The position numbers and the translations under genes are program-made. From assembly GCF_009936175.1 (NCBI RefSeq), contig NZ_AP019773.1, positions 1,305,001-1,369,000 on the forward strand: a DNA stretch of 64,000 nt. The letters run 5' to 3'. Numbering within the stretch: the stretch's first letter is position 1; each line of letters begins with the position of its first letter. Under the pieces are notes generated by a model. That model did no database searches. It was not told the DNA's origin and saw nothing but the letters and a program-made list of their open reading frames with translations. The stretch comes from Bartonella quintana (lineage in GTDB: Bacteria; Pseudomonadota; Alphaproteobacteria; Rhizobiales; Rhizobiaceae). This document shows, one piece after another, positions 11,311-55,035 of this stretch.

Positions 11311-11763
11311 ATGGTGAATAATAAGCAGATTCATACTTCAAAAGACCATCATACAGAGCAAGGTGCTCCACTGCCTCAAGACTTCCCCTTAGACCCTGCA
11401 GCAGAACGTGTGAGAAAAAAGCTTATGCGTTTCATGATTATTTCCATTTCAATAACGCTCATTCTTACCCTTACTGTCTTGTCTTTAGCTGTCTACAAAA
11501 TAATAGCAACAGGATCAGCTCCAAAACAAACAGCTAGCTTTTCCTCACACAGCAAAAATCTAGAAGTTGCCCACCATACACTTTCCTTACCGGAAGGAAC
11601 ACAGATTTTGTCACACAGTCTTTCAGAACACAATATTGTGTTAAAGATCTTAACGCCAGACGGGAAAACGAAATTCATGATTTACAATTATCATACTGGA
11701 GCACCTATCGCTATCCTTTGTGTTGAAACACCAAAAGAAAAATCGACCACCCAACCCCATTAA
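11311..11763 (+). CDS. Small single-pass membrane protein (DUF6476-like)
   Basis: 150 residues: a ~35-residue polar N-terminus, one membrane helix at about 45-67 (MIISISITLILTLTVLSLAV), and a ~75-residue C-terminal domain with SLPEGTQILSHSLSEHNIVL and IYNYHTGAPIAILCVE. The layout and the short beta-rich tail resemble the DUF6476 family of alphaproteobacterial membrane proteins; I judge this by pattern only. The topology should place the C-terminal domain in the periplasm. It follows the small exported protein by 50 bp. Confidence 0.6.
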   Translation: MVNNKQIHTSKDHHTEQGAPLPQDFPLDPAAERVRKKLMRFMIISISITLILTLTVLSLAVYKIIATGSAPKQTASFSSHSKNLEVAHHTLSLPEGTQILSHSLSEHNIVLKILTPDGKTKFMIYNYHTGAPIAILCVETPKEKSTTQPH

Positions 11764-11818
11764 ACTAGCAACATTTCACAAGTGTTTAAACAGTGCTCTT
11801 TTGTAAACAGTGCTCTTT

Positions 11819-11965
11819 TGTTTAAGCATTTTCCTTTGCCGAAGATGTTATCACCCACCATCGACGTGGTTTTCGGAAGATTTCCTCACCTAAGCAAAAG
11901 TAAACAGGAAAGCACCCTTTGGAAAGCCACCAGCTTGAAACCAGTCCACTGGAACCAAAGAAGGA
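11819..11965 (-). repeat. Copy of the DUF4167 gene 3' end (copy 3)
   Basis: The stretch matches 5821-5905 (the last codons of the DUF4167 gene) and continues into sequence shared with copy 2 (both have a CACTGGAACC/AACTGGAAC motif). It has no usable frame. The rest of 11764-12737 holds only the small frame at 12446-12550. Confidence 0.7.
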
Positions 11966-25427: not shown

Positions 25428-25603
25428 AACAGCCATCGTTTACAACAGCCATCGTTTACAACAGCCATCGTTTACAACAGCCATCGTTTACAACAGCCAT
25501 CGTTTACAACAGCCATCGTTTACAACAGCCATCGTTTACAACAGCCATCGTTTACAACAGCCATCGTTTACAACAGCCATCGTTTACAACAGCCATCGTT
25601 TAC
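25428..25603. repeat. Perfect 11 x 16-bp tandem array
   Basis: The unit AACAGCCATCGTTTAC occurs 11 times head-to-tail with no change. It lies 75 bp beyond the clpB stop and ~420 bp upstream of the terminase small subunit gene, in 25005-25678, which otherwise contains no gene. There are no spacers, so it is not a CRISPR. It resembles an iteron array or a VNTR; function unknown. Confidence 0.95.
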
Positions 25604-25678
25604 ACATGGTCTACCCACATACACTAGGATTCCCATGACGTACAATTCCCATTGTATCATTATGATACCTTTTCAGAT

Positions 25679-28318
25679 TTACCTTGTCAACTTTTTTCTG
25701 TTCTCACTGTCATTTTTTTCAGCGTCATTGGGTGTTTCTTGGGTTTCTGGCAGAAAGACTAGCCGGTCACCTTCTTTTGCGATTGTCACGGTTGTTTCAT
25801 CATAAATTTTTCCAAATAAGATATTTTCCGCGAGAGGATCTTGAATTTCTTTTTGGATAATGCGTTTGAGAGGTCGCGCACCATAAAGGGGATCATAGCC
25901 TTTATGGGCAAGGAATTGCCGTACTTCTGGTTCGATATGCAAGGTTATTTTGCGTTCATTGAGCAAATTTTGCAAGTGCTGTATCTGGATATCGACGATT
26001 GCTTCCATATCCTGACGTTGTAATCTCTGAAAAAGGATAATTTCATCAATACGGTTAAGAAATTCGGGACGGAAAGCAGCTTTTACGACATTCATGACAT
26101 CATTTTTTGCCTGATCGGTTGTTTGTCCTTCAGGCAGTGCAGTTAAAAATTCAGCACCAAGATTTGAGGTCATAATAAGCAAGGTATTGCGAAAATCGAC
26201 GGTTCGTCCCTGGCTATCAGTCAATCGTCCTTCATCAAGCACTTGCAGCAAGAGATTAAAAATATCGGGATGGGCTTTTTCAATTTCGTCGAACAGAATG
26301 ACCTGATAGGGTCTTCTGCGAACAGCTTCAGTCAGCACTCCCCCTTCTTCATATCCGACATATCCGGGCGGGGCGCCAATCAGGCGTGCACCGGCGTGTT
26401 TTTCCATATATTCGGACATATCAATGCGCAACATTGCGTTTTGGTCTTGAAAGAGGAAAATGGCGAGCGCTTTGGTTAACTCAGTTTTTCCCACACCGGT
26501 AGGACCGAGAAACATAAAGGAACCGATAGGACGATTTGGATCTTGCAGCCCGGCGCGTGCACGCCGTACGGCGCGGGAAACAGCTTGAACGGCTTCGCCT
26601 TGTCCCACCACACGCGTGCTAATTTCATCTTCCATACGTAAAAGTGCCTCTCGCTCTGCCTCGAGCATACGATCAATGGGAATACCAGTCCAGCGTGAAA
26701 CGATGCGCGCAACATGTTCAGCAGTGACAGTTTCCTCGACGAGATGATTTTGTTGGTCATCATTTTCAGCCATGCTCAATTGTTTTTCAAGCTCAGGAAT
26801 AACACTATAAGCAAGTTCTCCGGCTTTTTGGAATTGTCCATTACGCTGTGCGATAGCCAAAGCATTACGTGCTTCATCAAGTTGTTTTTTCAAATCGGCA
26901 GCATGTCCTAATTTTTGTTTTTCGGCCTGCCAAGCTGTTGTCATTTCGGTAGATTTTTGTTCCAATGTGTTGAGTTCATCTTGCACGATTTTCAGACGTT
27001 CTTTTGCTGTTGGCTCCACATCTGTTTTCAAGGCTTCACGTTCGATTTTCAACTGTAAGATTCGCCGATCGATAGCATCGAGTTCTTCAGGTTTCGAATC
27101 GACTTGCATGCGCAACCGCGCCGCGGCTTCATCAATAAGATCAATGGCTTTATCGGGCAAAAAACGATCAGTAATATAACGATTAGACAGTCGAGCTGCA
27201 GCGATCAAAGCACTGTCCGCCAAACGTACTTTGTGATGTTGTTCGTATTTTTCTTTAATGCCGCGCAAGATAGAGATTGTATCGTCAAGGGTTGGTTCAG
27301 GCACAAAAACAGGTTGGAAGCGGCGCGCTAAAGCGGCATCTTTTTCGACATATTTGCGATATTCATCAAGGGTCGTCGCGCCTACACAATGGAGTTCTCC
27401 GCGTGCAAGAGCGGGTTTTAGCAAGTTAGAAGCATCCATAGGGCCATCGGATTTTCCAGCCCCAACGAGATTATGCAACTCATCAATAAAGAGAATGATT
27501 TGCCCGTTTTCGGCCTGCACTTCAGCAAGGACAGCTTTGAGGCGTTCTTCGAATTCACCGCGATATTTGGCGCCAGCGATAAGCGCTCCCATATCGAGTG
27601 CATAGAGTTGTTTATCGCGCAAAGTTTCAGGGACATCACCATTAATGATACGCAGTACCAAACCTTCAACGATGGCAGTTTTTCCCACACCGGGTTCACC
27701 GATCAGCACGGGATTATTTTTGGTGCGTCGTGAGAGAACCTGAATAGTGCGGCGAATTTCCTCTTCGCGTCCAATAACAGGATCAAGTTTCCCTTCGCGT
27801 GCATTTTTTGTCAGATTACAGGCATATTTTTGCAAAGCATCATACTGGCTTTCGGCATGGGGGGTCGTTGCTTTTTTTCCTTTACGCAGAGCATTAATAG
27901 CCTGATTGAGGGCTTGTGGGGTTAATCCTGCTGTTGTTAAAATATCAGCTGTTTTTGCAGTTTTTTCCATGATAAGTGCTTGCAACAAGCGCTCCACGGT
28001 TACAAATTGGTCACCTGCTTTTTGTGCAAGATCTTCTGCCATATCGAAGACTTTTGCCAACGGCTGGGAGAGATAGAGTTGCCCATTTCCGCCCTGCACT
28101 TTTGGCAAAACATCGAGGGCTTCTTTGAGCGCCTTTTGAATAAGGGATAAATCACCGCCAGCTCTTTGGATCAAAGAGGCAGCTAAACCTTGAGAATCCT
28201 CTAACAACACCTTAAGCAAATGCTCAGGCATAAACTGCTGATGATCAGAAGAGAGAGCTTTGTTTTGTGCTGTTTGTAGAAAACCTTGAAGCCGTTCACT
28301 GTATTTTTCCAGGTTCAT
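25679..28318 (-). CDS. clpB: ATP-dependent disaggregase ClpB
   Basis: About 879 residues, near the usual ClpB length. Clp-N repeats occupy residues 1-145. The first AAA+ has [14 protein letters not shown] and ILFIDELH; the coiled-coil M domain runs around 400-530; the second AAA+ has [15 protein letters not shown] and [11 protein letters not shown]. The sensor/arginine-finger region ([20 protein letters not shown]) is intact. ClpB works with DnaK to dissolve aggregates after heat stress. One oddity is [20 protein letters not shown], where SVS/SVA replaces AGA in most ClpBs. The ATG at 28318 has AAAGGA upstream; the frame is open for another 108 codons but without ClpB-like content. It is monocistronic here. 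Confidence 0.95.
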
Positions 28319-28690
28319 TTTTTTTCCTTTCTTGCCCCACCACCACCGCACTTTAAATTCCCCAGAACATTCGGAAAGGATCGACAAAACCACACCAAAC
28401 AGCGCAAACGACGCAGCATGAAGAATAACCGTAGTGCGACAATAGATATGGGCTCTAATAAGAACGAGTACAAGAGGGAAAGCATGATAGAAAGGAGAAA
28501 CAACGGCAAAAGGAAGCAGCAACGAAAAGAGCCGTAGCGAAAAGCACGAGGACAGAGAAAAACGATAGGAGGAAAAAATGATACGAGGAGAATCATTGCG
28601 AAGAAAAAGCAAAGAGAGTCTTATTGACAAAAAGAGCGGCAATATTCTGTTTTCAATATCTCACTTTCAATGCACAATCTTCTTCCTGGC

Positions 28691-29098
28691 TTAAACATCT
28701 GGCTCCCTTAACTCAAATATCCAAGCCCTTTCCCAACTTCACTCCCCTTATTAAACCCTGGGCCTGGTTGTTTGGCTCCCAATGCCCAGCTCTTCCAGCT
28801 CAAACACCCCCATTCCCTGGGCTTCAAACATGCATTTCCCTTAGCTTTAAAATCGGGTTCTTTCCCCAACTCAAACGCTCAACTCTCCCGGTTTGAACAT
28901 CTGGCTCCCTTAACTCAAACATCCAGCCCTTTCCCAACTTCACTCCTCTTATTAAACCCTGGGCCTGGTTGTTTGGCTCCCAATGCCCAGCTCTTCCAGC
29001 TCAAACACCCCCATTCCCTGGGCTTCAAACATGCATTCCCCCTAGCTTTAAAATCGGGTTCTTCCCCAAATCAAACGCTCAACTCTCCCAGTTTGAAC
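28691..29098. repeat. Two ~204-bp tandem repeats with internal ~22-nt periodicity
   Basis: Bases 28691-28894 and 28895-29098 are almost the same. Within each, shorter elements such as AGCTCAAACACCCCCATTCC, GGCTTCAAACATGCATTTCC and AGCTTTAAAATCGGGTTCTT recur as diverged relatives of one another. The + strand is C/T-rich and G-poor. The block lies between the clpB 5' region and the yacG 3' end. Frames across it encode only repeated low-complexity peptide. Confidence 0.85.
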
Positions 29099-29162
29099 AA
29101 CCGATCCTTCCTCAACCTGAAAAACATGGTTTTCAATACTCTTGAAGACCTTACTGCCCTTT

Positions 29163-43641: not shown

Positions 43642-43715
43642 CCTCTCTTCGGGGAAACATCCCTCTTTGGGGCAACGACACCTCTTTGGGGAAACGGCGC
43701 CTCTTTGGAACGCCT

Positions 43716-44152
43716 TCTTTAGCATTTCGATTCTTCTAGACAGTTCTCCTCGATGATTTATTTAGCAAGCCTTATAATTGTTCCCCTTTCTGCGTTTGAT
43801 AATCAATGGCATCGTCTTGGACTAGGGAGGGGGGATACTATGACGGGCTAAAGCTCTTAAAAAACAAGGGTATCAGATTGAGCATTTCGATTCTTCTAGA
43901 CAGTTCTCCTCGATGATTTGTTTAGCAAGCCTTATAATTGTTCCCCTTTCGGCGTTTGACAATCAATGGCATCGTCTTGGACTAGGGAGGGGGGATACTA
44001 TGATCGGGCTAAAGCTCTTAAAAAAACAAGGGCATCAGATTAATTTATGGGATTTAGGCTTTTCGTGTCAGGAAGTTTCGTCGATTCCCCATGCAGAGCA
44101 TGATCTGATTTTGCAGGGAATTTTTACAGAAAAAGGTTTCTTAAAGCGTTAA
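43716..44152 (+). pseudogene. Two tandem 3' fragments of the 5-formyl-THF cyclo-ligase gene
   Basis: The first (about 43760-43876) and second (about 43925-44152) both match the gene's end from SLIIVPLSAFDNQ on. The second runs to the original stop (HAEHDLILQGIFTEKGFLKR). Each is preceded by the same ~45-bp leader (AGCATTTCGATTCTTCTAGA at ~43720 and ~43880), so a ~160-bp unit was itself duplicated. The second has a short open frame but lacks the N-terminal substrate half, so it is not an active enzyme. Confidence 0.85.
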
Positions 44153-46273: not shown

Positions 46274-46942
46274 TCAAGCTCCCTGCTTGGGCTCTCCTCC
46301 AAGGTGGTTTTTTCTCATATCAAGCCCTGTCGTGGCACGCTGAATTTGCTGCACCATCATCTCCAAGGCCTCATTAAAACAGCTAATCTCACTTTCAAGC
46401 TTGCGAATATAGGCTTCGTCACGATAGGCGCGTTTAATCAAAGGAGGCATATCAGGCCAATAGAGCATCAAATCCACCCATTCGCGTTGAGCGATCCATA
46501 ATCCTCCCTGACATTGTGCTTTATGCTCTGCTGGAAAAGTTTTTTGATAGAAATGAGGGATCAGAATTTCAGGTTTTTTGGTTTTAATTTCCAAAAGTCC
46601 ATTTGTTCCAATAAAAGCATCAGGAGAAAAACCTTTCATGCGATCATCAGCCAGAACAAATCCAATACATTGAGGCTCGGTTTGCGTGAATGTACCATAA
46701 AGCTGCCGCGCGCTTGGTTCTAATTCTGTTCCGCGTCGCATAGAAAGGGTTTTCCCCTCTTCGACGGATTTTCCAGTAATTCTTTCTCCAGCGAGCTTCA
46801 TCATAACGGAATAATATTTTGAGGTTTTTTGTCCCTGTTTTTTTCGTGCCATAACTATTTCAAACAAAGAAGCCGTAATCAATCCATTGCGCGCTTGATG
46901 CCATTCCTCTGTTCCTTGAATACAATCGATAATAATTGGCAT
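46274..46942 (-). CDS. YqaJ-type phage recombination exonuclease
   Basis: About 222 residues. It has the YqaJ/lambda-exonuclease arrangement: GTEEWHQARNGLITAS at the N-terminus, FSPDAFIGTNGLLEIKTKKP (the D...ExK nuclease core) in the middle, and AQCQGGLWIAQREWVDLMLY after it. It should degrade one strand of double-stranded ends for phage recombination. GGGGGGATATC stands before the ATG at 46942. No single-strand annealing partner (Bet/RecT) is seen in the window. It marks one end of the replication-type island. Confidence 0.88.
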   Translation of the reverse strand: MPIIIDCIQGTEEWHQARNGLITASLFEIVMARKKQGQKTSKYYSVMMKLAGERITGKSVEEGKTLSMRRGTELEPSARQLYGTFTQTEPQCIGFVLADDRMKGFSPDAFIGTNGLLEIKTKKPEILIPHFYQKTFPAEHKAQCQGGLWIAQREWVDLMLYWPDMPPLIKRAYRDEAYIRKLESEISCFNEALEMMVQQIQRATTGLDMRKNHLGGEPKQGA

Positions 46943-47229
46943 GATATCCCCCCATCTTTGAAACGCCTTCGATTTTTGAAACATTCTCTCTTTTAAAGCT
47001 CGCCCCCTCTTTGAACTCTTTTGCGATTAATTCATCTTGATTTTTCTTTTAAAGATTATCAAAAGCAGCTTTTTTCACTTTGAGAGTTCTGCAAATGTCT
47101 CTTTCTGATTTTTCAAGCACTCTTTGCCTGTTGCAAGCAAGGAAGTGAAAATGCTTTTTTCGTAGATTTGCTTTTACGGAAACTTCTGCCATCTCCCGTA
47201 AGTCTGTCTCCGCACACCCCATGGTGCAC

Positions 47230-48170
47230 CACCCATCCGCCGTAAACCACATCCCACCCTATAGGTGTTGATAGGGGCCTTCCCATGAGAGACGCCATCA
47301 CCTGAACACTTCTCTCTTGTCTGCCCCTCCTAGGCACATCTCCTTCCCCAAAAGAACCAGACAAGTTTCCCGCTCTCCTGCTCGAACCAGAAGAACTTCC
47401 CCCTCTTGAACTTGTCCCAAGCACATGCTCCACGAGCTGCCTCCACGTCCCCCACTTCATCACGCACACTAGCTCCTTTCCCCCCATTAAGCATAACACC
47501 CCACCCTATAGATGTTCATAGGGGCCTTCCCATGAGAGGCGTCATCACCTGTGAACACTTCTCTCTTGTCTGCCTCTCCCAGACACATCTCCTTCCCCAA
47601 AAGAACCAGACAAGTTTCCCGCTCTTCTGCTCGAAGCAGAAGAGCTTTCAGCCCGAAAAACTTCTCGAACCAGAAGAACTTCCCCCTCTTGAACTTGTCC
47701 CAAGCACATCCTCCACGAGCTGCCTCCACGTCCCCCACTTCATCACGCACACTGACCCCTTTCCCCCCATTAAGCATAACACCCCACCCTATAGATGTTC
47801 ATAGGGGCCTTCCCATGAGAGGCGTCATCACCTGTGAACACTTCTCTCTTGTCTGCCTCTCCCAGACACATCTCCTTCCCCAAAAGAACCAGACAAGTTT
47901 CCCGCTCTTCTGCTCGAAGCAGAAGAGCTTTCAGCCCGAAAAACTTCTCGAACCAGAAGAACTTCCCCCTCTTGAACTTGTCCCAAGCACATCCTCCACG
48001 AGCTGCCTCCATGTCCCCCTTCATCAAGCACACTAACCCCTTCCCCCCCATTAAGCATAACACCCCACCCTATAGATGTTCATAGGGGCCTTCCCATGAG
48101 AGGTGTCATCATCTGTGAACACTCCTCTCTTGTCTGCCTCTCCTAGGCACATCTCCTTCCCCCAAACACC
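47230..48170. repeat. Tandem ~283-bp repeats downstream of a phage-type pseudogene
   Basis: The unit starting GCATAACACCCCACCCTATA recurs at 47491, 47774 and 48055 (spacing 283 and 281 bp), with a partial unit from 47230. Each contains a palindromic CCCTATAGATGTTCATAGGG and a block AAAGAACCAGACAAGTTTCC. Frames across it on either strand merely repeat. Another copy lies at 35800-36560. 46943-47229 shows nothing else. Confidence 0.9.
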
Positions 48171-48494: not shown

Positions 48495-48884
48495 TTACCA
48501 CCAGTAATCGTTCAACACATCACATGGACGCAAACGATGCTGCTTTTCGTAAGAGCCATAGAGATTATCTTCATAATCGCGTGCAACTTTTCCACTTAAA
48601 TAAGCATGGTAAGCGTCACTATTAAGAATAAATGGCTGAAGTTGGGTATTTTGTTCGTCAATTTCGTAATTTATGACATAGGCCTCAGCGATGTGTTCAC
48701 TGACATCATCGGCATGAAGTGTTGTGAGATCGAGACGTAAAATTCTTTGAACAGTTTCTCGTTCTTCAATAAATTCAAGAACTTCTTCGACTTGTTCGAT
48801 TGGCCCCTCCACAACATCACAGCTTTCATCTTCACAGAGAATGATGATGACTTCATCCTCTTTAACGAATGGAATATTTTTCAT
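48495..48884 (-). CDS. Hypothetical acidic protein of the phage-type island
   Basis: 129 residues, strongly acidic (IIILCEDESCDVVEGPIEQV; EEVLEFIEERETVQRILRLD). GGGGAGAAATC stands before the ATG at 48884, so it is translated. It lies directly upstream of the TGA-containing gene, probably one transcript. Acidic early phage proteins often act as inhibitors or DNA mimics, but nothing here proves that. No family is recognised. Confidence 0.65.
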   Translation of the reverse strand: MKNIPFVKEDEVIIILCEDESCDVVEGPIEQVEEVLEFIEERETVQRILRLDLTTLHADDVSEHIAEAYVINYEIDEQNTQLQPFILNSDAYHAYLSGKVARDYEDNLYGSYEKQHRLRPCDVLNDYWW

Positions 48885-49136
48885 GATTTCTCCCCTTTTG
48901 TACAGTTGATAAAGCACAGCTTTGTCTTGACATAGACAAATATAGCGTTAGTCTTATCTCCTCTATGGGAGAGATGTCAATCATTTTATCCTTAATAAAA
49001 GATATATTTTCAGTCTCTACGACGTTCAAAACGGCATGTGTGAATAAAAACTTGCCCTATTTTGTTCGTGGAATGTCCTTGTATTGTTCTCTATTTGTTC
49101 TTACTCAACGCAACCAAAAACAGCAGGAGGGCTAAA

Positions 49137-49277
49137 ATGAGTGATTTAGAATTGGTACAATACTGGTGTACTCTTGATTCAAAAACACAAAAAGATATTA
49201 TTGCTATGCTTCGCCACTTGGTCGCCGCAAGAGAGTCAAAATCGCCTGTCTCTCCTGTGGAGAAAGCTTTGAAATAA
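49137..49277 (+). CDS. Small phage-type protein convergent with the repressor
   Basis: 46 residues starting at an ATG with AGGAGGGC (a near-perfect site). Sequence: MSDLELVQYWCTLDSKTQKD then IIAMLRHLVAARES and a proline/lysine end. Its 3' end overlaps the 3' end of the repressor gene (49204-49515, opposite strand) by 74 bp. The short helix pattern (LDSKTQKDIIAMLRHLV) resembles the C-terminal tail of XRE repressors, including the one it overlaps (LSPQERQAILTLLRR). Confidence 0.65.
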   Translation: MSDLELVQYWCTLDSKTQKDIIAMLRHLVAARESKSPVSPVEKALK

Positions 49278-49515
49278 GATCGAGGAATTCTTTATCTTCA
49301 GGACTCGCGCTTTGCCCATAAAGGATATAATTCATACTGATATTAATTTCATGACAAACGCGCGCTAGAGATTCAATTGTTGGTTCTTTTCCTTCAGAAA
49401 GGATAGAATGGAGGTACCCAGCACCTTTACCGGCTGCGAGGGAGATAGATCTTTTTGACCGTCCACTCTTTTCAAGTGCTGTAGCTAATCTTTGACGCCA
49501 ACCATCGATATTCAT
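49204..49515 (-). CDS. XRE-family phage repressor-like regulator
   Basis: 103 residues. The helix-turn-helix spans about residues 8-65: ATALEKSGRSKRSISLAAGK, YLHSILSEGKEPTIESLARV and CHEINISMNYILYG, as in cI/Cro-like proteins. A short dimerisation-type tail (SPQERQAILTLLRR) follows; there is no LexA-like protease domain, so it is not an SOS-cleaved repressor. It is divergent from the DUF1376/primase operon and should control it from the 49516-49967 region. Confidence 0.85.
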   Translation of the reverse strand: MNIDGWRQRLATALEKSGRSKRSISLAAGKGAGYLHSILSEGKEPTIESLARVCHEINISMNYILYGQSASPEDKEFLDLISKLSPQERQAILTLLRRPSGEA

Positions 49516-49967: not shown

Positions 49968-50966
49968 ATGCAAAACGCCAATAAACAAGAAACTCCATAC
50001 TACGAATCGTCTACGCTTCCTTATGTCTGTTGGTATCAAAATGATTTTCTAGGAGGAGTTCGTGGAATGCGGGCACATGAAATTGGGATCTATACGATTC
50101 TTCTCAATGAAATGTACGCACGTGGTCGTCCTCTAGAATTATCTGTAGAACGTTTAGCGCGTCTTTGCGGTTGTGACAAGCGAACTTTTGTGAATGTTTT
50201 AGAAATGCTTGTACAAGAAGGAAAGATTTTAAATTTAGCGAATGGGTTATGGAATAAGCGCTGCGAAAATGTGTTTCATGAGCGGGTGAAATTGCTTGAA
50301 CAAAAATCCTTTGCGGGACGTTCTTCGGCCCAAAAACGCAAAAAAATCAATGCCAAATTTCAACAACTGCTCAACGAGAGTGTAAAAGATGATGAACGTA
50401 ACTCAGAATCTCAGAAGGAAAAAGAAAAGGAAACACCTCACGGTGTTTCAGAAAAGCCCTTTTTTTTGATTGAAACAGAAGAGGAAAAGAGGGGACAGGG
50501 AACAAAATGCACGCGCCTTTGTTCTGGGTTTACATCCATGCAACCTTCTGTGACAACACCCAACAAAAAAGATGTGCCAGAGAACTCTAACCACTCCAGC
50601 AAAGACACAGAAAGCCTTGCCGGCTCCAGCAAGAAAGGCAAGAACTGCACAGTGATACCCAAAGGACAGCGTCTTCCTACCGATTGGCAAGCAGATATCT
50701 GTGCGGCGATTTCAGAAGGTTTGAGTGAAGAGCAAGCACGTTGGCAAGAAAAGAAGTTTCGCGATTATTGGCATGCAAAAAGTGGTAAAGAAGCGCTTAA
50801 AGTAGATTGGCAAGCCACATGGCGCAATTGGTTTCGCCGTGAGATTGAAAGGATAAAAGAACATCAGGAAAAACTTGCAGTTTTTTCCTCTCATCCCACC
50901 CACGCACAACATTGCAGTGACAATGATGCTCTTTACCGCAGTCTCATCAACTACCGCACGCATTAA
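49968..50966 (+). CDS. DUF1376 phage replication-type protein
   Basis: 332 residues. The N-terminal ~110 residues form the DUF1376 domain: PYVCWYQNDFLGGVRGMRAH, IGIYTILLNEMYARGRPLEL, and RLARLCGCDKRTFVNVLEML. It resembles winged-helix initiators, and such genes lie before helicase or primase genes in phages. A long polar linker (residues ~135-225) leads to a C-terminal basic domain with QARWQEKKFRDYWHAKSG and VDWQATWRNWFRREIERIKE. It ends one base before the next ATG (TAACATG), so it is coupled to the truncated primase copy. The last ~80 codons are duplicated at 51829-52076. Confidence 0.82.
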   Translation: MQNANKQETPYYESSTLPYVCWYQNDFLGGVRGMRAHEIGIYTILLNEMYARGRPLELSVERLARLCGCDKRTFVNVLEMLVQEGKILNLANGLWNKRCENVFHERVKLLEQKSFAGRSSAQKRKKINAKFQQLLNESVKDDERNSESQKEKEKETPHGVSEKPFFLIETEEEKRGQGTKCTRLCSGFTSMQPSVTTPNKKDVPENSNHSSKDTESLAGSSKKGKNCTVIPKGQRLPTDWQADICAAISEGLSEEQARWQEKKFRDYWHAKSGKEALKVDWQATWRNWFRREIERIKEHQEKLAVFSSHPTHAQHCSDNDALYRSLINYRTH

Positions 50967-50967
50967 C

Positions 50968-51834
50968 ATGAGCACAATTTTTGAAATCAAACAGAAGCTT
51001 TCGTCTCAAACGGAGGCAAAAGCAAAGCCAACAGCCTCGCAGTGTGAAGCAATTTTGTTTGGCTGGCAAGCCCTTGCCTCAACAGATCAGGTGCCTATCT
51101 CCACAGACCGCCCACTCTTTCCGACGAACCAGACGCCTGTCTCAACAAACCACGCACCTTCCTCAACGGACCAGGCTTTTGCCTCAACAGATCAGATGTC
51201 TGTCTCCACAGACCACGCACCTTCCTCAACGAACCAGGCTTTTGCCTCCACAGATCAGACACCTGTCTCCACAAACCGCGCACCTTCCTCAACGGATCAA
51301 GCTTTTGCTTCGACAGATCAGACACCTGTCTCCACAGACCGCCCACTCTTTCCGACGAACCAGATGCCCGTCTCCACAAACCACGCACCTTCCTCAACGA
51401 ACCAGGCTTTTGCCTCCACAGATCAGACACCTGTCTCCACAAACCGCGCACCTTCCTCAACGGATCAAGCTTTTGCTTCGACAGATCAGACACCTGTCTC
51501 CACAGACCGCCCACTCTTTCCGACGAACCAGATGCCCGTCTCCACAAACCACGCACCTTCCTCAACGGATCAAGCTTTTGCTTCGACAGATCAGACACCT
51601 ATCTCCACAGACCGCCCACTCTTTCCGACGAACCAGATGCCCGTCTCCACAAACCACGCACCTTCCTCAACGAACCAGGCTTTTGCCTCCACAGATCAGA
51701 CACCTGTCTCCACAAACCGCGCACCTTCCTCAACGGATCAAGCTTTTGCCTCAACAGATCAGATGCCCGTCTCCACAAACCACGCACCTTCCCCAATGGA
51801 TCAGGCTTTTGCCTCAACAGATCAGAAAGTTTGA
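50968..51834 (+). pseudogene. Truncated primase copy consisting mostly of heptapeptide repeats
   Basis: 288 codons. It begins like the primase at 52078 (MSTIFEIKQKLSSQ), then jumps over ~155 residues to the segment before the repeats (KAKPTASQCEAILFGWQALA). About 35 seven-residue units of the form ST(N/D)xxxx follow (STDQAFA, STNHAPS, STDRPLF, PTNQMPV), and a stop comes right after. All TOPRIM and helicase motifs are absent. The frame is clean, so a repeat protein could be made; as a primase it is dead. Array bases: 51079-51813. Confidence 0.8.
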
Positions 51835-52076
51835 GCGAAAAGCAAACACGTTAGCAAGAAAAGAAGTTTCGCGATTCTTAGCATGCAAAAAGTAGCAAAG
51901 AAATGTTTAAAGAAAATTGGCAAACCACATGGTGCAACTGGTCTCAAAGTGAGATTGAACGGATAAAAGAACACCAGGAAAAACTTGCAGTTTTTTCCTC
52001 TTACCCCACCCACGCACCACATTGCAGCAACCATGATGCTCTTTACCGGAGTTTCATCAACAACCGCACGCGTTAA
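51829..52076 (+). pseudogene. Degraded copy of the DUF1376 gene 3' end
   Basis: Matches 50719-50966 (shared AAGAAAAGAAGTTTCGCGAT and GAGATTGAACGGATAAAAGA-type blocks) but has stops and frame changes (for example TTAGCAAG for TTGGCAAG). It lies between the truncated and the full primase, showing that the DUF1376 end plus primase start was duplicated in tandem with a period of ~1.11 kb. Confidence 0.85.
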
Positions 52077-52077
52077 C

Positions 52078-54312
52078 ATGAGCACAATTTTTGAAATCAA
52101 ACAGAAGCTTTCATCTCAAGCAGGCGCAATAGCAGAAATGCTGCTTCCACAGGGGCGCAGGCGTGGCAATGATTGGATTGTAGGCAACACACAAGGTGAA
52201 GCTGGTCAAAGTTTATCGGTGTGCTTGAGCGGCAGTAAAGCCGGTCTTTGGTATGATTTTGCGGAAGGCAGCGGTGGCGACCTTTTAGACCTTTGGTGCG
52301 CTGTCAAAGGAATCAGCCTTTCTCAAGCATTAGAGGAAGCACGCACCTTCCTCAATCTTAGCCGTCCAAAACCCTTTATGGCACCTCACCGTTCCTATCG
52401 GCGTCCCCCAGTTCCCAAAGGAGATACCCCACAGAATTTGGTAAAGACTTACTTAAACAAAGAACGCTGTATCCCTCTTGATATTTTAAAACGTTATCGC
52501 ATAGGAGAAGATGGCGAAAAAATCATTTTTCCCTTTTATAAGCCGGATGGCACCCTTGCTTTGGTAAAAGAGCGGTTGGCACAAGCGGGAGCAAAAGCAA
52601 AACCGACAACCTCGCAGTGTGAAGCAATTTTGTTTGGCTGGCAAGCCCTTGCCTCTACGAACCAGATGCCCGTCTCCACAGACCGCGCACTCTTTTCGAC
52701 GAACCAGATGCCTGTCTCAACAAACCGCGCACCTTCCTCAACGGATCACGCTTTTGCCTCCACAGATCAGGTGCCTATCTCCACAGACCGCGCACTCTTT
52801 TCGACGAACCAGATGCCTGTCTCCACAAACCACGCACCTTCCTCAACGGACCAGGCTTTTGCCTCAACAGATCAGGTGCCTATCTCCACAGACCGCGCAC
52901 TCTTTTCGACGAACCAGACGCCTGTCTCAACAAACCACGCACCTTCCTCAACGGACCAGGCTTTTGCCTCAACAGATCAGGTGCCTATCTCCACAAACCA
53001 CGCACTCTTTTCGACGAACCAGATGCCTGTCTCCACAAACCGTACCATTGTCATCACTGAAGGAGAAATTGATGCACTTTCATTAGCCGCCTACGGATAT
53101 CCGGCGGTTTCGGTCCCATTTGGAGGAGGCAGGGGGGGCAAACACAACTGGATTGAAAATGAATTTGACCATTTAGAATCTTTTGAGACCATTTTTTTAG
53201 CCACAGATATGGATAAGCCTGGTGAAGAAGCAGCACGTGAAATTGCCAATCGTCTTGGTCTCCATCGCTGCCACCGTGTACGCTTGCCCCGTAAGGATGC
53301 AAATGACTGTTTAACCGCTGGTGTTGATGCAGCCACCATAGCAGCTGCCTTTTCATCAGCGAAAAGCTTTGCACCAGAAGGATTACGACGCGCCTCAGAG
53401 TATAAAGACCAAGTCACAGGGCTGTTTTGGCCAGAGCCTGAACAGCATATTGGCTATACAGTTCCCTATCCTAAACTCAATGGTAAGCTGTATTTCCGTC
53501 CAGCGGAATTAACACTGTGGAGCGGCGCCAGTGGAGCGGGTAAAAGCCAGTTGTTATCTGACTGTATTCCCCATTGGATTGCCCAAAAGAGTCGTCTTTG
53601 CTTAGCCTCACTAGAAATGAAAGGAGAACAATCCTTACGCCGTTTAACGAAACAAACGGGAGGTTTAGAACAACCCAAAAGAGAGATGATTGAAAGAATC
53701 CTGGATTTTTTAGACGATGGGCTTATTCTTTATGAGCATGTTGGCAAATCGAGCGTCGATACATTGCTTAATGTATTTGACTATTGCCGTGCGCGCTATG
53801 GTTGCGATCAATTTATCATCGACAGTTTAATGCGGCTAGGCATCGCCTCCGATGACTATACCGGACAAGAACAAGCGGTTTATAAAATGGTTGATTGGGC
53901 TGTTTTAAACGCCGTACATATTCATCTTGTTGCCCATGCACGTAAAGGTGGCTTAGACAAGGATGTTCCCGGTACTGAAGATATTAAAGGTGCCTCAGAA
54001 ATTGGCGCCAATGCCTTTAATATCATCACCATTTGGCGCAATCGGTCCTTAGAAGACAAAATTTGTGCTGCATCTTTGATGGAAGAAAAAGCAGATTTAG
54101 CCAAACGCCCCGGTGTGATTATGAATATCGCAAAACAACGTTCAGGGGATTTTGAAGGCAAAATCGGTCTTTGGTTTGACCCACAAACCTATCGCTACCG
54201 CTGTTCCTCTGAACATACCCTCACCCCACGTCGTTATCTTGAACGCCCAAACAAAAAAAACCAAGAAGACAAAAGAGAATATGCACCAATGGCTACTTCA
54301 ACAATGAAATAA
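52078..54312 (+). CDS. Phage-type TOPRIM primase-helicase with heptapeptide repeat insertion
   Basis: 744 residues. Residues 1-100 resemble a CHC2-like start without cysteines (GLWYDFAEGSGGDLLDLWCA). A TOPRIM domain follows: VITEGEIDALS (about 326-336), FLATDMDKPGEEAA, LPRKDANDCL. The C-terminal RecA-like helicase has Walker A SGASGAGKSQLL and Walker B FIIDSLMRLG, then HLVAHARKGG. This is the T7 gp4/Twinkle-type architecture. Between ILFGWQALA and RTIVITEGEID, where relatives have a short loop, 18 heptads ST(N/D)xxxx are inserted (residues ~193-318, bases 52654-53031), ordered in ~5-unit super-repeats. Catalytic motifs are intact, so it is probably functional. Confidence 0.88.
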   Translation: MSTIFEIKQKLSSQAGAIAEMLLPQGRRRGNDWIVGNTQGEAGQSLSVCLSGSKAGLWYDFAEGSGGDLLDLWCAVKGISLSQALEEARTFLNLSRPKPFMAPHRSYRRPPVPKGDTPQNLVKTYLNKERCIPLDILKRYRIGEDGEKIIFPFYKPDGTLALVKERLAQAGAKAKPTTSQCEAILFGWQALASTNQMPVSTDRALFSTNQMPVSTNRAPSSTDHAFASTDQVPISTDRALFSTNQMPVSTNHAPSSTDQAFASTDQVPISTDRALFSTNQTPVSTNHAPSSTDQAFASTDQVPISTNHALFSTNQMPVSTNRTIVITEGEIDALSLAAYGYPAVSVPFGGGRGGKHNWIENEFDHLESFETIFLATDMDKPGEEAAREIANRLGLHRCHRVRLPRKDANDCLTAGVDAATIAAAFSSAKSFAPEGLRRASEYKDQVTGLFWPEPEQHIGYTVPYPKLNGKLYFRPAELTLWSGASGAGKSQLLSDCIPHWIAQKSRLCLASLEMKGEQSLRRLTKQTGGLEQPKREMIERILDFLDDGLILYEHVGKSSVDTLLNVFDYCRARYGCDQFIIDSLMRLGIASDDYTGQEQAVYKMVDWAVLNAVHIHLVAHARKGGLDKDVPGTEDIKGASEIGANAFNIITIWRNRSLEDKICAASLMEEKADLAKRPGVIMNIAKQRSGDFEGKIGLWFDPQTYRYRCSSEHTLTPRRYLERPNKKNQEDKREYAPMATSTMK
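52654..53031 (+). repeat. In-frame 21-bp repeat array within the primase gene
   Basis: 18 units of 21 bp, each coding ST(N/D)xxxx (for example STNQMPV, STDRALF, STNHAPS, STDQAFA, STDQVPI). Groups of five form a ~105-bp higher-order repeat. The same units occur ~35 times in the truncated copy upstream. The + strand is C/A-rich and G-poor. Other reading frames also stay open throughout because 21 is divisible by three. Confidence 0.95.
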
Positions 54313-54438: not shown

Positions 54439-55035
54439 ATGAAGAACCAAGACAAGACAAAAAGCAAAGGAACACAAAAAATCAGCCCCCAAACTTTCCC
54501 TCTTTCCCACGCCGGTAAGGAAGAACAGCATATTGGCCATTTAAAAACACAAGAAGTCCTCATTGAAACAAGCAATCCTTATTTTCAGCCAACCCATCCA
54601 GAAAGCTCCAGCAACCCGCGCACCGTCAAAGCCATTGCCAATGCACAGAGTCGTCCCATTGTGCTTTTATACACGAAAGGGCATATCAGCAAAGTACAAT
54701 ATAAAGCAGCAGAACGTTTTTATATTTACTGGCGCCAAAATCAAGCTGACCTACATATGAGCCCTGATTACACGCGCCAAAAAGTTGCGTGCAGCCAGAG
54801 GTATACACACCCCATTGAACGCCAACTAGAGGCATCCAATCATCTAAAAAAAATCAAAGTTCTGCTTGGTGTTCTTGGCTATTCGCTTGTTGAGCAGGTG
54901 GTTGGTTACGGTCAGACAATAAAAGACTTAAACCCCTCAAAACGCAAACAAAACTCACTTGCTGATCATTTACGAGATTGTTTAGAGCTGCTCGCATTTC
55001 ATTGGGGATATGCAAGCCTTAAACATTCTAAATGA
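54439..55035 (+). CDS. Hypothetical phage-type protein downstream of the primase
   Basis: 198 residues. A polar N-terminal half leads to GHISKVQYKAAERFYIYWRQ and a helical C-terminal part with ERQLEASNHLKKIKVLLGVL and LVEQVVGYGQTIKDLN, ending LADHLRDCLELLAFHWG. The C-terminal layout resembles rhizobial prophage proteins of the DUF6456 kind and is shared in outline with 59569-60117 (ISKEQYDTAQRY...). AGGAAATGAT precedes the ATG. Probably the last gene of the replication operon. Confidence 0.7.
   Translation: MKNQDKTKSKGTQKISPQTFPLSHAGKEEQHIGHLKTQEVLIETSNPYFQPTHPESSSNPRTVKAIANAQSRPIVLLYTKGHISKVQYKAAERFYIYWRQNQADLHMSPDYTRQKVACSQRYTHPIERQLEASNHLKKIKVLLGVLGYSLVEQVVGYGQTIKDLNPSKRKQNSLADHLRDCLELLAFHWGYASLKHSK

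Follow-up and report, generated by a model that had tools for sequence, protein, structure and literature searches.

The window analysed here comprises 64,000 nucleotides of Bartonella quintana (contig NZ_AP019773.1, positions 1,305,001-1,369,000 of the 1,588,683-bp chromosome) and carries, at 52078..54312 on the plus strand, an open reading frame for a protein of 744 amino acids. The frame corresponds to the helicase gene in the run-off replication (ROR) module of Bartonella. Its product joins a TOPRIM domain to a RecA/DnaB-like helicase in the manner of a primase-helicase: a domain profile search returned Toprim_2 (E 1.5e-10) and AAA_25 (5.7e-07), the protein matches phrog_239 DNA primase/helicase at 2.3e-107, and its profile matches in the PDB are to primase/helicases and Twinkle. 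Inside the gene, at 52654..53031 (plus strand, residues 193-318), lies an array of 18 heptapeptides in an unbroken row, each starting with ST(N/D), which together make up 126 residues and are followed by STN and R322. The array is bounded by ILFGWQA (184-190) and RTIVITEGEID (322-332) and sits in the loop directly ahead of the first TOPRIM strand, where it adds exactly 126 residues to a loop of 8.

The initial annotation of this DNA had described 18 heptapeptide units between these flanks, ordered as super-repeats of about 105 bp that grew by block duplication, at a site where related primases have a short loop. Reading at the level of residues bears out the units and their position, and the order is recovered as well: the array has a five-unit period of 105 bp with a self-identity of 92%, of which Tandem Repeats Finder (TRF) resolves 3.5 copies at 95% with a score of 675 against a threshold of 50. 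Growth by block duplication is supported, and the short loop is indeed present, with 8 residues, outside Bartonella and in some Bartonella clades. The identity of the gene as the ROR helicase, the variability of the site across the genus and the repeat zone that surrounds it had escaped that annotation.

The TOPRIM domain (53050..53313, plus strand, residues 325-412), with EGE and DMD motifs, and the helicase ATPase domain (53464..53952, plus strand, residues 463-625), with the Walker A sequence GASGAGKSQ and a Walker B motif, were delimited by profile matches and by reading of the motifs. The combination of EGE and DxD motifs with a RecA-like helicase bearing Walker A and B places the protein in the class of T7 gp4 and mitochondrial Twinkle, whose TOPRIM and helicase architecture it shares; the structures matched are 5ikn and 6n7i, both labelled 'DNA primase/helicase' and presumably T7 gp4, and the Twinkle entries 8e2l and 7t8b. 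These alignments contain no long insert at the site where the Bartonella protein has its array. T7 gp4 also has a zinc domain, and here the likeness ends: we found no CxxC zinc-binding pair in the 744-residue protein, the first 130 residues of which contain only Cys 49 and Cys 74, and none in the alignment of three relatives from IMG/VR, so that the name 'primase' is owed to the motifs only. The claim that all catalytic motifs are intact therefore stands for TOPRIM and helicase and falls for the zinc-binding pair. Among phage proteins, the ES18/AF-type primase-helicases (phrog_239) share 36.6-43.0% identity with the protein, at a query coverage of 97-100%, in 56 of the best 60 of 79 records; the match spans of these best 60 show no long insertion, none being more than about 20 residues longer than the corresponding part of the query.

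Membership in the ROR module follows from the gene's position downstream of gene 4 (DUF1376) with a repressor-like gene and an exonuclease nearby. Gene 4 (49968..50966, plus strand) encodes a primosomal or initiator protein (PF07120, 1.5e-13; phrog_3992 primosomal protein, 9.3e-40) in a lambda-O-like position upstream of the helicase. It is followed outwards by a divergent repressor-like gene (49204..49515, minus strand; phrog_3037 transcriptional repressor, 2.1e-06), a hypothetical gene of the ROR region (48495..48917, minus strand; phrog_23448, 1.4e-20) and a YqaJ/RecE-like exonuclease (46274..46984, minus strand; PF09588, 3.2e-16; phrog_149 exonuclease, 4.7e-35), and a conserved gene lies downstream of the helicase (54439..55035, plus strand; phrog_21451, 8.4e-40). 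All 34 helicase loci found in the collection of named genomes belong to Bartonella; gene 4 is matched in every one of them (in L055 only as a fragment). Matches number 33 for the repressor-like gene, 32 for the downstream gene and 31 for the exonuclease, and several loci end at contig borders.

The module itself and the plasticity of the region around it were known before (PMC2697382, PMC3610622). Berglund et al. 2009 (PMC2697382) placed the helicase close to or within the amplification peak of B. grahamii, homologous to the peak of B. henselae, these being the only two species for which such a peak is published there, and pointed out its likeness to Twinkle. The published gene thus agrees with the present one in being Twinkle-like and close to or at the peak (PMC2697382) and in belonging to the same module of exonuclease, gene 4 and helicase (PMC2697382, PMC3610622). 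Guy et al. 2013 (PMC3610622) called the region ROR and likened gene 4, which contains palindromic repeats, to the origin-holding lambda O; the ROR origin has been proposed to lie within gene 4, just upstream of the helicase. The module feeds the gene transfer agent of the BaGTA system (PMC2697382, PMC3610622), and a later review (PMC6899734) reports that gene transfer is lost when the ROR origin or certain ROR genes are disrupted; a figure legend in a review marks brrB and brrD, both ROR genes, as essential. Repeats within the helicase are not mentioned in the available excerpts of these three sources, and the excerpts of a B. henselae multilocus variable-number tandem-repeat study (PMC3428342) list four intragenic repeat loci without naming the ROR helicase gene. 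In the open-licence literature we found no paper on repeats in the ROR helicase or on an insertion at TOPRIM, nor any account of a repeat-filled loop across the genus, of its near-neutral turnover or of an array gradient around ROR.

The loop proves to be strikingly variable within the genus. The protein was matched in 59 of 71 Bartonella genomes; three weak partial matches (G014, G045, G057) were dropped, and of the remaining 56 genomes G037 (broken) and G063 (a remnant) lack a usable reading frame, while the inserts of G018 and G031 are masked, which leaves 52 measured loops. Relative to the 8-residue loop, 40 of these carry 19-551 extra residues and 12 carry 0-14 (0-5 in eleven genomes, 14 in one), and the repeat units and their sequences differ among lineages. 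The loop has 8 residues in all three IMG/VR relatives, and three genomes outside Bartonella, obtained from a search of 397 genomes of the order, are matched over the full length of the protein without interruption at 58-60% identity. Comparison across Bartonella genomes, as proposed in the initial annotation and made here with one genome per species apart from one species with two records, favours its length-variable linker; the finding that would have spoken for a simple conserved linker, namely relatives with the same array at the same length, was not made. A midpoint-rooted tree built from the conserved parts groups every gene that has 0-5 extra residues in one supported clade of 15 rows. 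This clade also includes G002, G007 and G008 with 61, 179 and 72 extra residues, which suggests that the insert was gained or lost more than once.

The contrast between loop and body is sharpest among close relatives. In eleven close pairs the body of the gene (1755-1764 nt, made up of about 188 codons ahead of the insert and 400 behind it) aligns without a single gap column, and the insert differs in length in nine of them, for example 42 versus 105, 216 versus 537, 501 versus 1653 and 1068 versus 1626 nt, the largest difference being 1152 nt. Could such variation be an artefact of assembly? Assembly readily goes wrong in tandem arrays, and masked or unknown bases occur within some inserts; yet the units differ from one another by point changes, inserts occur in 40 of 52 genomes, and two separate records of B. 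doshiae, though possibly of one strain, have an identical gene. We give this explanation next to no credence.

A few loci depart from the common pattern. The helicase gene is broken in L092 (G037), its stop codons lying outside the loop measure, and is reduced to a remnant in L105 (G063); judging by these sequences, the ROR of both genomes may be inactive. One draft genome (G052, contigs C5 and C11) has two helicase-like genes, which may reflect duplication of the module or a split in the assembly.

What, then, constrains the array as protein? Comparison of units within the 24 of 40 arrays that have a clear period yields a summed pN/pS (nonsynonymous to synonymous differences) of 0.82, with a range from 0.40 to 2.97, and codon position 2 is the least variable, with 660 changes against 1125 and 1003 at the other positions. 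Composition was compared between the 40 gene arrays and 31 noncoding arrays from the same loci, the latter lying outside the interval from gene 4 to TOPRIM and translated in each of their three forward frames. The gene arrays contain no stops (2.7% in the noncoding frames), 1.9% lysine plus arginine (9.9%), 10.8% hydrophobic residues (27.0%) and 83% residues of the set STNQHPAG (57%); restricting the noncoding set to its stop-free frames (23 of 93) leaves a contrast of like size. Relative to the mean of nucleotide shuffles, charged residues (DEKR) are fewer in 37 of 40 arrays and more frequent in G070, G019 and G009. The inserts thus have the polar, uncharged and weakly hydrophobic composition of a disordered low-complexity linker beyond what the composition of the DNA would give. 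Residue identity is nearly free and residue class is held, which is what a disordered linker would require.

The same arrays offer little to the notion of a phase-variable element, also raised in the initial annotation. Their strongest period is divisible by 3 in 37 of 40 cases and the other three have no clear period (identity at most 0.42), so that an on/off switch is unsupported. No length change that shifts the frame, as expected of a contingency locus, was found among the measured genes, the one broken gene (G037) not being among them; all 52 measured genes are in frame, although this is guaranteed by the way in which the measurement was built.

A linker of variable length may still be adaptive: the length of the array would determine how far the TOPRIM and helicase domains can reach from the N-terminal part, and so tune ROR or gene transfer. 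The filter on composition at the protein level would suit this idea, as would the retention of a long array in most array-bearing genomes. It fits less well with two pairs of genes that differ in insert length, 14 versus 35 residues at 98.7% identity of the bodies and 356 versus 542 at 98.5%, with the 0-5 extra residues that suffice in eleven genomes of one supported clade, or with the near-neutral differences between units. An adaptive role of length therefore seems rather unlikely to us.

The initial annotation also considered that the array might be a DNA signal that has to be coded through, that is, an ROR origin or part of one, or a packaging or primase site, comparable to the iterons of lambda O. 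Lambda O, too, is a phage replication gene with repeats in its coding sequence at an origin, proposed in the Bartonella case (PMC3610622). Several properties of the DNA point the same way. All 40 arrays contain C in excess over the codon usage of their own gene. The commonest 10-mer, CCACAAACCA, occurs in 18 of 40 arrays and in at most 13 in 60 codon shuffles. Many arrays have periods of 21 or 42 bp, equal to two or four helical turns.

Each of these properties nevertheless has a plainer counterpart. GC skew is negative in all 40 gene arrays (mean -0.59), but it is so in 29 of 31 noncoding arrays outside the interval from gene 4 to TOPRIM as well (mean -0.43), in 33 of 35 of a larger noncoding set that includes arrays within that interval, and 16 of 20 arrays in the window share the C-rich strand. 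Since nearby noncoding arrays have the same skew, the C-rich strand is a regional trait, and a special code at the DNA level was rejected. No k-mer is common to all 40 arrays when tested against codon-shuffled ones, and CCACAAACCA can encode PTNH, probably the seed of the arrays. Helical phasing at 21 bp is frequent without being general, periods of 15, 18, 39, 54, 114 and 225 bp occurring too; common descent of the heptad seed would be the simpler account. Folded as RNA, all ten arrays so examined are less structured than the body of the gene, and codon shuffles differ from them little and in both directions.

As judged from gene content alone, gene 4, helicase, repressor-like gene and downstream gene are all retained in the eleven modules whose loop has only 0-5 extra residues; the exonuclease is seen in nine, the other two loci being short. 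In five of them (G006, G010, G041, G042, G047) no array was detected between gene 4 and TOPRIM; G015, G036, G040 and G046 have an array in the gene 4 linker, and G012 and G029 a short one between gene 4 and the helicase. Linker arrays in gene 4 were noted in several species, at loci L078, L085, L087, L092 and L050, some of them with an empty helicase loop. Conserved iterons in every member, as in a lambda-type origin, are not present in the helicase array, gene 4 not having been searched for them; unlike the iterons described for lambda O (PMC3610622), the Bartonella arrays have no universal motif and are sometimes absent. Without a shared k-mer, with a strand bias that is regional and with five array-free modules, an obligatory signal is unsupported, and an origin or packaging signal in the array was rejected. 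We regard a coded-through signal of any kind as quite improbable.

Immediately upstream of the intact gene lies a further product of duplication, which the initial annotation does not mention. At 50968..51834 (plus strand) there is a truncated helicase copy that consists of the first 14 codons, a deletion, the residues from about 171 up to the loop, an array and a stop. Its array (51079..51831, plus strand) has about 36 units of the kind found in the intact gene and is open in the same frame. The copy is framed by a tandem duplication: the tail of gene 4 with the start of the helicase at 50712..51024 (plus strand) is 87.5% identical to a second arm at 51822..52134 (plus strand), in which the gene 4 tail is degenerate. 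A survey of the interval from gene 4 to TOPRIM in 53 genomes (the 56 without G011, G064 and G063) found extra copies of the gene 4 tail ahead of the helicase in 22, and extra helicase starts in four further genomes (G005, G013, G022, G027). At L094 (G022) and L095 (G027), three and two extra tandem helicase starts precede the intact gene at a spacing of 381 and about 370 bp.

Such upstream copies might serve as a reservoir for gene conversion that overwrites the functional array. The open array of like units in the window and the recurrence of extra gene 4 tails and helicase starts would suit this, but six array-bearing genomes (G016, G030, G035, G065, G048, G009) have no extra gene 4 tail and only 5-101 bp between gene 4 and the helicase. 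We consider the explanation very improbable.

The array is, moreover, one of many. We measured the share of noncoding bases occupied by TRF arrays in samples of about 400-635 kb from each of four ROR genomes, and in all four the arrays are densest near the helicase. Within 25 kb of the gene they take up 6.7% of noncoding bases in G000, 15.2% in G023, 12.7% in G027 and 4.0% in G006, against 0.5%, 0.2%, 0.8% and 0.2% beyond 300 kb. Comparison of the regions within 60 kb and beyond 130 kb gives one-sided p values of 0.004 (G000), 7e-5 (G023), 0.006 (G027) and 0.009 (G006). In 10-kb bins with coding arrays included, density peaks just upstream of the helicase in G000 and 10-20 kb upstream in G023 and G006. 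As a pattern, then, duplications are concentrated around the supposedly re-firing origin in all four sampled genomes; that re-initiation drives them, we infer. The length of the helicase insert grows with the gap between gene 4 and the helicase (rho 0.73, n=50, G018, G031 and G037 being left out of the survey set of 53), also after the 14 genomes of the small-insert clade are removed (rho 0.58, n=36).

Other arrays were recorded on the way. The noncoding array at 47381..48166 in the window (283 bp x 2.8, no strand assigned, TRF score 1467) has the same C-rich strand as the array in the gene, with a GC skew of -0.46. Two further duplications, both about 96% identical, belong to the repeat zone of the window, one of 201 bp x 2 at 28694-29099 and one of 160 bp x 2 at 43645-44041, and a perfect tandem array of 16 bp x 11 at 25428-25604 adjoins a gene at 25679-28642 whose translation, on inspection by eye, is ClpB-like. 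Genome G023 has arrays of 14-bp units (L158:5467-6064 and 11414-11941) about 27-34 kb from the ROR helicase, with a skew of -0.99 and one strand almost free of G. A gene unrelated to the helicase, for a protein that by eye is YbgF-like, matched the array through long AATDVPP-type repeats in G070 (L100:294-2366).

We hold it to be more likely than not that the array is a passive disordered linker, enlarged through tandem duplication within an unstable zone that surrounds a re-firing origin. The ROR region would be unstable because replication re-initiates there, and broken or slipping forks would make tandem duplications, which would thus arise often near the ROR origin. Outside genes they would accumulate. 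Within the module, the survivors would be in-frame, harmless duplications that fall in a loop or a linker, such as the helicase loop or the linker of gene 4, and arrays that persist could expand further by slippage or unequal crossing-over. The helicase loop is presumably exposed and its insert disordered, so that the array would be a passive spacer of little effect on the chemistry of the enzyme. The broader proposal, in which the ROR origin acts in nature as a permanent source of tandem duplications in a bacterial chromosome and seeds the zone through repeated initiation, its own initiator and helicase genes included, with the helicase loop as a coding footprint, is put forward tentatively, as a possibility that falls somewhat short of being probable.

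Several observations weigh against this account. Secondary peaks of array density, with coding arrays included, stand at about -90 kb in G000, -130 kb in G023 and -80 kb in G006; in G027 arrays still occupy a high share of the noncoding DNA, 15.7%, at 130-300 kb; the correlation with distance is not significant in G006 (p 0.12); and the overall share in G003, a genome without the helicase gene, is 1.9%, which exceeds that of the far regions in the other four. Insert length shows no correlation with the density of flanking arrays up to about 6 kb away (rho 0.17, p 0.37; 31 of the 34 loci were used, since three lack a measurable insert), and insert and gap agree in sign in only seven of ten informative contrasts between close pairs. 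Five of the 24 arrays have a pN/pS above 1, and the comparisons of composition, skew and insert versus gap treat non-independent species as independent. The region is, finally, one of high plasticity, and relaxed constraint or frequent recombination could give rise to the zone without re-replication.

Precedents for a duplicating effect of excess replication exist elsewhere. Re-replication induces gene amplification in yeast, with broken forks and head-to-tail duplications (Finn and Li 2013, PMC3536649), and over-initiation has been argued to be a factor of instability under the name of 'replification' (Kuzminov 2016, PMC5053440). The yeast case is one of segmental amplification and the latter a review argument, whereas in Bartonella we have a genomic pattern of short tandem arrays alone.

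The ROR helicase thus presents a replication enzyme of a domesticated phage system that accommodates, next to its TOPRIM domain, inserts as long as about 550 residues, with repeats that differ among lineages of a single genus. In the four ROR genomes sampled, a zone of tandem repeats is indicated around the origin of run-off replication. If the origin does generate these duplications, run-off replication would both copy the genes of host adaptation for transfer and mutate their region by duplication. If re-initiation is the cause, Bartonella would provide a natural bacterial counterpart of the duplications induced by re-replication.

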